From positions 1 through 64,000 of the forward strand of contig NZ_RYFD01000014.1 of assembly GCF_004138135.1 (NCBI RefSeq): a stretch of DNA of 64,000 bases, read 5' to 3'. The notes under the pieces are model-generated. The model had not been told where the DNA came from. It did no database searches and saw only the letters and a list, made by a program, of their open reading frames with translations. A program made the translations under genes and the position numbers. This document shows, one piece after another, positions 12,276 to 32,540 of the stretch. The stretch is from Candidatus Oscillochloris fontis (GTDB taxonomy: Bacteria; Chloroflexota; Chloroflexia; Chloroflexales; Chloroflexaceae). The stretch's first letter is position 1, and the number at the start of each line of letters is the position of its first letter.

Positions 12276-12500
12276 CGCAAAGACGCCAAGGCGCAAAGTC
12301 TTCAATAAAAGACCCTATCAAAATCTTGGCGTCTTGGTAAGAGTTCACACTTCTCCTTGCTTCCAGGTTTTGACGCAAAGACGCAGAGGCGCAAAGTCTG
12401 CAATACAACCTTTGCGTCCTTGCGCCTTTGCGTCAATACGAGATTTCTTTTACCCCAAGTGTGAACCCTTACCCGTCTTGGCGTCTTTGCGTCAAAATCG
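12273..12500. repeat. Nested repeat: MITE-like copy inside an ACGCAAAG hairpin
   Basis: The outer hairpin arms are TGACGCAAAGACGCCAAGG at 12273 and GTCTTGGCGTCTTTGCGTCA ending near 12494. Inside is a 136-bp element (12337-12472) bounded by GTAAGAGTTCACACTT and AAGTGTGAACCCTTAC. Its flanks are GCGTCTTG and CCGTCTTG (7 of 8 identical). This is what an 8-bp target duplication of an older insertion looks like. Confidence 0.85.
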
Positions 12501-19946: not shown

Positions 19947-20101
19947 GTAGCTGTTCACACTTCTCCTAGCATCGTAACTGTTCACACTTTTCCTAGTTTT
20001 GACGCCAAGACGCAGAGGCGCAAAGCCTGCAACAAAACCTTTGCGTCCTTGCGCCTTTGCGCCAATACGAGATTTCTTTTACCCCAAGGGTGAATAGTTA
20101 C
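19947..20101. repeat. MITE-like element (family A), copy with a duplicated left end
   Basis: Left ends occur twice: GTAGCTGTTCACACTT at 19947 and GTAACTGTTCACACTT at 19974. They are followed by the ACGCC/GGCGCAAAG core hairpin and a right end AAGGGTGAATAGTTAC finishing at 20101. It begins directly after a stop codon. CACTAGGT occurs at both sides (19941 and 20107) but offset, so a target duplication is not clear here. Confidence 0.8.
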
Positions 20102-22034: not shown

Positions 22035-22263
22035 CTGTTCACACTTGCTCAAGAACCTAAGGTTATTAACGCTAAGACGCCAAGGCGCGTAACTGTTCAC
22101 ACTGCCCCGAACATCGGGGTTTTGACGCAAAGACGCAAAGACGCAAAGACGCAAAGCATTATATTGGAGAACCAACTCCAATCTTTGCGTCTTCGCGCCT
22201 TTGCATCAACCTGTCGTTTTGCGTAGGAATGATAATCCGTTTACCCCCATCGTGAATAGTTAC
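22031..22263. repeat. Composite MITE-like element (family A) between rnhB and murF-alr
   Basis: Left end GTGACTGTTCACACTT at 22031, a second internal left end GTAACTGTTCACACTG at 22089, a core hairpin with tandem GACGCAAA units and a right end GTGAATAGTTAC at 22263. Length is 233 bp. It looks like one copy inserted in another. TTATGAT occurs on both sides, but offset by about two bases. Confidence 0.8.
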
Positions 22264-25178: not shown

Positions 25179-25616
25179 GCAAGTAGTCATAGCTTGGAGC
25201 GAAACCGCAACCCGTCAATATGCAACCCTTACGTAACTATTCACACTTGGGTAAAGGAAATCTCGTATTGACGCAAAGGCGCAAGGACGCAAAGGCTTTG
25301 TTGCAGGCTTTGCGCCTCTGCGTCTTTGCGTCAAAAACTGGAAGCTAGGAGAAGTGTGAACAGTTACACCCTTACTCCGCCCCAACAGCAGAGTGCCCGC
25401 AATCTGGTTCAGACGATCAAGGTTTCGCCCCGTGCGGCGCACTATTACCATACCGCCACTCAACGGGATGGCACCACCCGTGCCGTCTGGGTTGCCTATG
25501 GACTTACCGTGCGGATCTTATTCACTCTGGCAGAAGATGGACGCAGCCTCATTGCCCGAATCTTCGATGTAGCACCATCCGATCTCCCTGGTATCGCAGA
25601 CTACGAAGAGTCCTAA
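25179..25616 (+). pseudogene. RelE/ParE-like toxin candidate, split by a MITE-like element
   Basis: The reading frame starts at the ATG at 25179 and reads MQVVIAWSETATRQYATLT, then meets a stop inside the element at 25234. Removing the element (25233-25367) and one copy of the 8-bp duplication ACCCTTAC restores an open frame: TATLTPPQQQSARNLVQ and on to the stop at 25614. The restored protein has about 97 residues and ends RAVWVAYGLTVRILFTL, consistent with a small RelE/ParE-like toxin; the family call is tentative. The right part could still be made from a GTG at 25356 supplied by the element. Confidence 0.72.
25233..25367. mobile_element. MITE-like element (family A), 135 bp, in the toxin-like gene
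   Basis: Ends GTAACTATTCACACTT and AAGTGTGAACAGTTAC are 16-bp inverted repeats with one mismatch. The core is a GACGCAAAGGCGCAAGG hairpin. The 8-bp direct repeat ACCCTTAC is at 25225-25232 and 25368-25375. It has no coding capacity, so it needs a transposase in trans. The right end carries AGGAG followed four bases later by GTG, an outward-facing start. Confidence 0.9.
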
Positions 25617-29990: not shown

Positions 29991-31400
29991 TTACTCGGTG
30001 GGCGGAGCGCTCTCGATCTTCGAGGTCAACTCGTTCTGATCCCACATGGCCGGATCAGAGTTGGTGGCGAAGATGTAGTAGGTGGCCGGGTTCGGGTCAC
30101 CCTTCTCGCTGAAGCTGTAGGTGCCAGTGATACCACTGAGCGCCGGCAGGCTCTTCATCGCGGTCAACACCTGCTCGCGGGTCGGCTTGCCGTTGGCCTC
30201 AACCGCTGCGGTGACGATAGCAGCCTGACAGAAGGCAGCCGAGTCATACGCCTGGGCCGAGAAGGGCGGAGCGGAACCGTTGAACTTGGCGGTGTAGTCA
30301 GTCGCATACTGAGCAGCGTTGGGGAACTGGCTCACCGGGGCGGCCACGGTGGTGTAGTAGGTGCCCTCAAGGGCATCACCAGCCAGCTTGGCCAACTCAG
30401 GCGAATCCAGGCCGTCCGGGCCGAGGAACTGCGCCATGATGCCACGGTCGCGGGCCTGACGCAGCAGCGGGCCAGCCTGCGGGTAGAGGCCACCGAAGTA
30501 GATCATGTCCGGGTTGGCGGCCTGGAGGGGGGTCAGGATCGAGGAGAAGTCGCTCTTCTCATCGGTGCCCTCGAAGGCCAGCACTTCGAGGCCGAGGCGC
30601 TCGGCCTCAAGCTTGAAGAACTCAGCCACGCCCTGACCGTAGTCGGTCTTGTCGTGGAGGATGTAGACGGTCTTTACGCCAATTTCCTCGGCGAAGCGGG
30701 CGCCAATCGGACCCTGGAGGTCGTCACGACCCACCACGCGGAAGGCGTTGGCGTAGCCGCTCTCGGTGATCTTGGGGTTGGTGTTCGCAGGCGAGATCAT
30801 CACCAAGCTAGAGTTGCTGTAGTCGGGCAGCGAAGCCAGCGCCACACCCGAATTGAGGTGGCCAACCACGCAGAGGATGTCGGGGTCGGAGACGATGTTC
30901 TTGGCGTTGGCCGAACCAACCTCAGGCTGGGCCTGATCATCGAAGGGGGTGAAGCCAATCTCGACGCCCGAACCGGCCAGGGCGACGTTGGCCTGCTCGA
31001 TGGCCAACTCAACACCGTTGCGGATGCCGGTACCCAGCGCAGCCTGGTCGCCGGAGAGCGGGCTCTGCGAGGCGATCGTGATCGTGCCCAGGGCAGCCGC
31101 AGCCTCCGGGGTCATCCCGGCGGCGGTGGCCATGATGTACTCAACGACGGTCATCGCGGCCGGGGTTGGCTCGGCGGTGGCCTCGGTTGGTGCGACGGTG
31201 GCCTCGACAGTGGCCTCGACAGTGGCCTCAACAGTGGCCTCGACAGTGGCCTCGGTGGTGGCCGCAACAGTGGCCTCAGCAGTGGCCGGGGCGGTGGTCG
31301 CCGGGGCGGTGGTCGGTGACGCTGCCGGGGCGCTGCCACAGGCAGCCAGCAGCGACATCAGCACGCCGACCAGGACGATCAGACTCATGATACGCTTCAT
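29991..31400 (-). CDS. livJ: Branched-chain amino acid ABC transporter, substrate-binding lipoprotein
   Basis: 469 residues. Lipoprotein signal ends LLAAC (Cys21). Residues 28-80 are a low-complexity linker of Thr/Ala/Val/Glu with four or more exact EATV repeats. The type I periplasmic-binding fold follows (GTITIASQSPLSGDQAALGTGIRNG). It captures branched-chain amino acids or similar compounds outside the membrane. AAGGAG precedes the ATG. It is the first gene of the liv operon. Ligand specificity is inferred; Leu, Ile, Val, urea or amides are possible for this family. Confidence 0.92.
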   Translation of the reverse strand: MKRIMSLIVLVGVLMSLLAACGSAPAASPTTAPATTAPATAEATVAATTEATVEATVEATVEATVEATVAPTEATAEPTPAAMTVVEYIMATAAGMTPEAAAALGTITIASQSPLSGDQAALGTGIRNGVELAIEQANVALAGSGVEIGFTPFDDQAQPEVGSANAKNIVSDPDILCVVGHLNSGVALASLPDYSNSSLVMISPANTNPKITESGYANAFRVVGRDDLQGPIGARFAEEIGVKTVYILHDKTDYGQGVAEFFKLEAERLGLEVLAFEGTDEKSDFSSILTPLQAANPDMIYFGGLYPQAGPLLRQARDRGIMAQFLGPDGLDSPELAKLAGDALEGTYYTTVAAPVSQFPNAAQYATDYTAKFNGSAPPFSAQAYDSAAFCQAAIVTAAVEANGKPTREQVLTAMKSLPALSGITGTYSFSEKGDPNPATYYIFATNSDPAMWDQNELTSKIESAPPTE

Positions 31401-31704
31401 TACTTGTTAGCTCCTTGAAGTTCCAGTTAACGTAGAGGGAATTTGTGGGTACCTGCACCTGTTTAGACCAAGTTGGGTTGCTAACCCACCATGCGCCAGG
31501 CGCGCCGCGCTACGCAAGATAGCGTGAAACACCCCCTTTCGGAGTCGCGCTCCCTGACAGCGGGAGAGGAGCAGCATTGGACGCAGAGTTGGAGATAGAC
31601 GTAGCAGTAGGTCGCTACGCCCATATGGCATGTTCAAAAAACCCAACACTCCGGGGTATACAAGTGCGCAGTCTACCCGAAGCGAAAATCTTTGTCAAGA
31701 GGCC
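31401..31704. other. Upstream region of livJ
   Basis: 304 bases that should hold the liv promoter (minus strand). I see no gene and no certain -10/-35. No palindrome stands out, so an operator cannot be named. Confidence 0.3.
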
Positions 31705-31712
31705 CTGTTCCC

Positions 31713-31848
31713 GTAACTATTCACACTTGGGGTAAAAGAAATCTCGTATTGACGCAAAGGCGCAAGGACGCAAAGGTTTTGTTGCAGGCTTTGCGCCTCT
31801 GCGTCTTTGCGTCAAAAACTGGAAGCTAGGAGAAGTGTGAACAGTTAC
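31713..31848. mobile_element. MITE-like element (family A), 136 bp, with exact target duplication
   Basis: Ends GTAACTATTCACACTT and AAGTGTGAACAGTTAC, nearly identical throughout to the copy at 25233. The 8-bp direct repeat CTGTTCCC is at 31705-31712 and 31849-31856. This independently confirms the element's borders. It lies between livJ and the membrane-anchored protein gene. The stretch 31857-31967 holds a family C half-unit (near 31895-31917) and a TACAAT -10-like word at 31924. Confidence 0.9.
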
Positions 31849-31967
31849 CTGTTCCCCAATTCCCCCATCATCACCGGGTTCCCTGATCATCCCGTAGAGG
31901 CGATGCTTCGCCCCTACATAGGGTACAATAGATCCCGCACGAACCATGCGCACACGCTAGGAACCAC

Positions 31968-32540
31968 ATGGATAGTGAGTCATCACATAACATCCCGATC
32001 TGGATGTGGGGTGCGCTGGTCGCCCTGCTCTTGATCATCGTGAGTAGCCGTGGGCGGCTGGTGGGCAACCCGGCCCTCAGCCAGCAGTTTGCTATGCAAC
32101 CCACACCAAACATCGCGCTGCCCTTGCCCGATCTCCAGATCGGCAATCTCTCCCCCGATCTGCAAGCCCAGGCCCAGAGCCTCCTGCGCCAGATCGGCTT
32201 GGGTAATAGCGGTCGCCCGCTCGAACCGCTGGCAACCACCCCGCGCCTGCGGATCGAGGTGACTGAACTGCGTCCCGAAGAGACCGGCCTGCGGGTGATT
32301 GGGCGGGTGACGAATATCAGCACTACGGTGGTTACGGTGCCAATTAGCGCCTTTGAACTGCGCGATAGTACGGGGGCTTCGTATATCGCCGGTGGCAGCG
32401 GGAGCGCCGCACTGCAACCCGGTGAAGATACGCCCCTGGAGTTGACGGTGCCCCTGCCACCAGAGCGCGGTCTGCTCCTGATTACTCGTCTGCCTCCCGA
32501 TCCGCCTGCTGAACAGAAGTTGATAGTGAGTAATCCGTGA
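31968..32540 (+). CDS. Membrane-anchored protein with a beta-sandwich-like domain
   Basis: 190 residues. One N-terminal membrane segment (residues 13-27), a Pro/Leu/Gln-rich linker, then a domain of about 95 residues (LRIEVTELRPEETGLRVIG, then NISTTVVTVPISAFELRDSTG) that resembles DUF4352/FxLYD-type extracytoplasmic beta-sandwiches. It overlaps the YggS gene by four bases (GTGA), so the two are co-translated. The function is unknown. A possible -10 (TACAAT) lies 39 bases before the ATG. Confidence 0.72.
   Translation: MDSESSHNIPIWMWGALVALLLIIVSSRGRLVGNPALSQQFAMQPTPNIALPLPDLQIGNLSPDLQAQAQSLLRQIGLGNSGRPLEPLATTPRLRIEVTELRPEETGLRVIGRVTNISTTVVTVPISAFELRDSTGASYIAGGSGSAALQPGEDTPLELTVPLPPERGLLLITRLPPDPPAEQKLIVSNP

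Follow-up and report, generated by a model that had tools for sequence, protein, structure and literature searches.

Miniature inverted-repeat elements with IS66-like ends lie at a fixed distance upstream of predicted sigma70-type promoters in Candidatus Oscillochloris fontis

Results

We analyzed a 64,000-nucleotide stretch of the genome of Candidatus Oscillochloris fontis (contig NZ_RYFD01000014.1, positions 1 to 64,000; here called the window), in which a miniature inverted-repeat transposable element (MITE) of 136 bp occupies positions 31713 to 31848 of the forward strand. To its left lies the gene for a LIV-type ABC substrate-binding protein (29991 to 31400, reverse strand; PF13458, E = 1.7e-50), and a BPD_transp_2 permease gene comes next after it. 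The right-hand neighbor is divergent (31968 to 32540, forward strand) and has no Pfam match; the gene that follows it is YggS-like. A preliminary description of this DNA had proposed a mobile element that duplicates 8 bp of its target. Beyond that proposal, we report here two features of the family: insertion aimed at sigma70-type promoters and a relationship to IS66.

The left (GGGG) end of the element is at 31713, and both borders are set by sequence and by homology: in a genome search that returned dozens of copies, homology with the window MITE ends at its borders. The element is short and gene-free and has inverted ends of 16 bp (GTAACTRTTCACACTT), as is characteristic of MITEs. Its left terminal inverted repeat (31713 to 31728, forward strand) reads GTAACTATTCACACTT and then GGGGTAAA, and its right one (31833 to 31848, reverse strand) reads GTAACTGTTCACACTT and then, inward, CTCCTAGC. 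Two perfect copies of the 8-bp word CTGTTCCC, at 31705 to 31712 and 31849 to 31856 of the forward strand, directly abut the element. The interior is an imperfect palindrome (TTGACGCAAAGG...CTTTGCGTCAA; 31749 to 31815, forward strand) that is not recognizable as IS66 sequence; many related genomes contain dispersed hairpins of this type that lack these ends, and such hairpins serve as insertion targets. We considered the hairpin as a selected RNA structure and rejected this idea, as pair changes (covariation) were no better than in shuffles; an Rfam search of the window and the leader matched no family. A second dispersed repeat (ending GTAGAGGCGATGCTTCGCCCCTAC), with matches at more than 12 similar places in the genome, directly follows the MITE at 31863 to 31917.

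The left end of the element faces a predicted promoter on the reverse strand. Its -35 box, TTGACA, is at 31693 to 31698, with 14 bp between its first T and the left end, and its -10 box, TAGACT, is at 31670 to 31675, at a spacer of 17 bp. An independent consensus scan of 31380 to 32000 returned a single promoter-like site, which is exactly TTGACA-N17-TAGACT at 31698 to 31670. This promoter would serve the LIV-type substrate-binding gene (start at 31400) and the permease behind it.

Four genomes of the same genus have the same neighbors and an orthologous intergenic region without the MITE. Both promoter boxes are conserved in all four, and the promoter and leader together form a block (31436 to 31699, reverse strand) that can be aligned at 64 to 72% identity. 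This similarity (up to ~270 bp) stops 13 bp before the MITE, and the next start codon is ~70 to 90 bp away from the conserved block in the four congeners versus 269 bp in the host. Orthologous empty sites with one copy of CTGTTCCC had been suggested as a check; the congeners do lack the element, but the region is too diverged for a single CTGTTCCC to be recognized. A scan of genome contigs with the YggS neighbor did not turn up close relatives of the locus. The ~260-bp leader before the substrate-binding gene (31436 to 31699) has no Rfam match and could be a regulatory leader.

Within the host genome (a 4.46-Mb draft in 139 contigs), we delimited copies by two asymmetric ends, GTAACTRTTCACACTTGGGGTAAA on the left and GTAACTGTTCACACTTCTCCTAGC on the right. 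The end motif GTAANNNTTCACACTT occurs 205 times genome-wide, while its reversed control does not occur at all. Among the 105 simple copies, 51 are flanked by an exact 8/8 duplication and 18 more by a 7/8 duplication; when left and right flanks of different copies were paired as a control, only 0.19% matched at 8/8 and 0.63% at 7 or more positions. Five further genome copies are 100% identical to the window MITE. The family thus has the high copy number by mobility that is expected of MITEs, and because these six copies are mutually identical, its activity was recent.

These counts bear out the target-site duplication claimed in the preliminary description. The window MITE is flanked by CTGTTCCC and a second, 135-bp copy (25233 to 25367, forward strand) by ACCCTTAC, both exact. 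The counts also counter the concern that flanks of variable length might produce such words by coincidence, as 51 of the 53 exact duplications of at least 8 bp have a length of 8 bp and the other two of 9 bp. The copy at 25233 to 25367 has a TTGACG at the target distance discussed below; it sits within a called reading frame.

Clean proof of empty sites comes from approximately 10 nested copies within the host genome itself. Deleting the inner copy together with one 8-mer duplicate restores the ordinary right end of the outer element (for example, ...GTCAAAACCTG-GAGGCTAG-GAGAAGTGTGAACAGTTAC; with longer left context, GCGTCAAAACCTG GAGGCTAG GAGAAGTGTGAACAGTTAC). The 8-mer at the nested site varies with the outer copy (GAGGCTAG, GAGACTAG, GATGCAAG, GATGTTAG, and GATGCGAG), a variation that points to repeated, independent insertion at a single spot and in one orientation. 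The interior, a hairpin repeat that is common in related genomes, might have suggested a repeat that arose by chance or one that is regulatory and immobile; however, this explanation is refuted by the nested copies and also conflicts with the duplication statistics and with the absence of the element at orthologous loci, and we regard its probability as negligible.

Two more copies lie in the window, both on the reverse strand. One spans 136 bp (12337 to 12472), has a 7/8 duplication, and lies within another TTGACGCAAAG hairpin repeat; the other (19947 to 20101) is degenerate, with two overlapping right ends, and is a remnant of nesting. A variant end type, GTAACTGTTCACGATNGGGGTAA, is present in the window at 22263 and also in L246, L275, and L280; in genome G006 it adjoins fragments of an IS66 transposase.

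To locate the insertion sites relative to their surroundings, we aligned the flanks of the 69 copies with a duplication of at least 7/8. This alignment revealed KCAA at positions -18 to -15 from the left end. After removal of 21 sites in hairpin repeats, an outward TTG begins precisely 14 bp beyond the left end at 31 of the remaining 48 sites (background, 0.016; p ~ 1e-43), and the next best offset for CAA accounts for only three. The other enriched columns (-43, -41, -39, and -38) correspond to a -10 box, ATTATA, at a 17-bp spacer. A -10-like hexamer with a spacer of 16 to 18 is found on the left side of 26/48 sites versus the right side of 3/48, and the mean -10 score is 3.6 where the box is predicted and negative at all other shifts tried. 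An outward TTG is also found 14 bp from the right end at 5/48 sites (p = 0.001), two of which have a good right-side -10 box. Insertion is therefore not random: most copies lie at one fixed distance upstream of a promoter, usually in one orientation. By these alignments, the target is a sigma70-type promoter, with the order left end, duplication (8 bp), N6, TTGACA, N17, TATAAT.

Such a pattern could also arise if the transposase merely recognized a TTGAC-like word in the DNA at a distance of 6 bp from its cut. Promoters would then be hit because they contain this word and because intragenic insertions were lost by selection. Two observations speak for this explanation. Hairpin repeats that carry TTGAC are often used as targets, yet only 1 of 14 such sites has a -10 box. 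The right arm of the element is itself a TTGACG-bearing hairpin target at the right distance, which accounts for self-nesting at one site and in one orientation. However, among non-hairpin TTGAC targets, a -10 box is present at 13/14, versus 5/35 intergenic TTGAC sites (Fisher p = 4e-7) and 2.8% of genic TTGAC words, both counted in control sequence. Moreover, sites with a poor -35 that lack the TTG still have a -10 box at the right spacing (6/17 versus ~2/48 in shifted controls; p = 0.003). We consider recognition of a DNA word alone a real possibility, though one with clearly less than an even chance of being correct.

Upstream elements act around -42 to -50 of promoters, and the MITEs lie at approximately these positions. 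Copies might accordingly have been retained as upstream activating sequences of the neighboring promoter, such that their placement is adaptive. Retention alone would not be expected to produce a distance fixed to a single base, self-nesting at sites without a promoter, or copies in reading frames, and we consider this explanation very improbable.

Sister MITE families in related genomes served as a held-out set. A TTG at the target distance is present on one end in 10 of 24 duplicated elements (p ~ 5e-9), and most of these 10 also have a -10 box. The share of elements with the motif is high in genomes G018, G023, and G030.

The ends of the family led to autonomous relatives. In a genome of a different genus from the host (G010), an IS66-type element of 1439 bp (G010:C286:19493-20931) carries a single gene for a transposase of 454 amino acids (PF03050, E = 8e-48; NF033517, E = 9e-80). 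Its left end is identical to that of one MITE subfamily over the first 28 bases (28/28), and its right end matches the MITE at 22 of 23 bases; the window MITE has the same left-end type and a matching right end. A second autonomous element, in genome G066, has the same end type, and its transposase is 85% identical over 344 residues. Both elements themselves adjoin promoter-like sequences, TTGGCG-N18-TATAAT in G010 and TTGCCA-N17-GACAAT in G066, with the motif beyond the left end at the same 14 bp.

A Mutator-superfamily transposase of the ISLre2 or ISKra4 type, known for insertion at sigmaA promoters, might instead be the mover. Its habit is the same (oriented, 15 to 17 bp upstream of the -35 box, with 8- to 9-bp duplications), and p-MULT 4 elements are present in Chloroflexi (PMC3942029). 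The elements that share the ends and subterminal sequence of the MITEs, however, encode IS66 transposases and are themselves at promoters, and the Pfam hits of the G010 transposase include no Mutator model. We consider a Mutator-type mover unlikely.

In genome G028 (L187 to L191), the same 16-bp ends are found at contig ends, where 8-mers from different contigs match (TCACATGT and AAATCAGT) and the interior is not assembled, as expected for a multicopy insertion sequence collapsed in assembly. At L186 (1494-2932), the right end of the IS66 element holds TTCACA-N18-TATACT; the terminal repeat may therefore supply the -35 box of the IS66 transposase promoter. A search for transposase relatives found only distant haloarchaeal IS66 proteins (28 to 29%) in plasmids and none in viral contigs.

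Discussion

Together, these results make it highly probable that the MITE is moved in trans by an IS66-type transposase and is aimed at sigma70-type promoters by its left end. In the mechanism we propose, an IS66-type DDE transposase would recognize the 16-bp MITE ends and act in trans; the transpososome would position the left (GGGGTAAA) end beside a sigma70-type promoter and cut with an 8-bp stagger, the nearer side of the cut being 6 bp upstream of the -35 box. Once inserted upstream, the element would have its left end toward the promoter, which would remain intact. The enzyme would presumably find its target either by direct recognition of the -35 region or through contact with the RNA polymerase-sigma complex bound there. 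In a more far-reaching version, an IS66-type transposase would have independently evolved promoter targeting, guided by sigma70-RNA polymerase at the -35 region and nearly always using the same end, such that the MITEs mark the active promoters of these genomes; we put its probability somewhat short of even.

Several observations weigh against targeting of promoters by an IS66-type enzyme. No IS66 transposase was detected in the host draft genome, by PF03050 or by protein match, so the enzyme that moved these copies is deduced from ends that the family has in common with related genomes. Matching duplications are absent at both complete autonomous copies (G010 and G066), perhaps lost through later rearrangement. 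A total of 21/69 sites are in hairpin repeats that contain TTGAC, and almost none of these sites has a -10 box; because such repeats are also used, a full promoter is not always needed. In G009, G016, and G036, most elements of the sister families do not have the motif. By crude gene calls, the left neighbor reads in the promoter direction in 21/32 cases, and the right neighbor reads away in 16/32. Finally, the promoters are consensus predictions without mapped transcription starts, and the same 69 sites served both to find the motif and to test it, with only the set from other genomes held out.

The family resembles IS66 of the single-open-reading-frame type in that its ends start with GTAA, it makes 8-bp duplications, and relatives with the same ends encode a PF03050/NF033517 transposase. 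It differs in being 136 bp long and gene-free, with a hairpin in place of tnpC, and in its oriented promoter targeting. We found no report of promoter targeting by IS66 in the literature searched, a scope that mostly excluded subscription journals.

A constant spacing between the inserted element and a downstream -35 box is shared with TnGBS ICEs/ISLre2 (oriented in most) and part of the ISKra4 group (on both element sides), which insert 15 to 17 bp upstream of the sigmaA -35 (PMC3942029). A signature motif of the transposases in this group has been linked to promoter targeting (PMC3942029). These elements belong to the Mutator superfamily and make 8- to 9-bp duplications, and their orientation has been ascribed to dissymmetry of the ends (Guerillot et al. 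2014, PMC3942029). In contrast to their Mutator-type transposases, the transposase with matching ends here is of the IS66 type, and 14 bp rather than 15 to 17 separate the end from the first base of the -35 box. The authors of that study suggest that the RNA polymerase initiation complex is contacted; they compare TnGBS, for which integration through contact with the transcription machinery is proposed, with the yeast retrotransposon Ty3 (PMC3942029). Ty3 likewise integrates next to promoters; its enzymes and hosts are unrelated to those discussed here, and for our family protein contact is a proposal. Among bacterial MITEs, Correia elements are similarly short, gene-free, high in copy number, and mostly intergenic, with inverted ends (PMC10969869). 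However, they supply their own promoters, whereas the element described here adjoins an existing host promoter. A review that covers prokaryotic MITEs does not mention IS66 or nesting.

Promoter-targeted, oriented transposition of bacterial DNA elements has been published for two lineages with Mutator-type transposases. With a third case, from a transposase family unrelated to these, such targeting would become a recurring answer to the question of how to spread without disrupting genes, and the same rule also explains the repeated, oriented self-nesting at a single site. For a lineage with few mapped promoters, the approximately 100 copies constitute a natural map of promoter positions.
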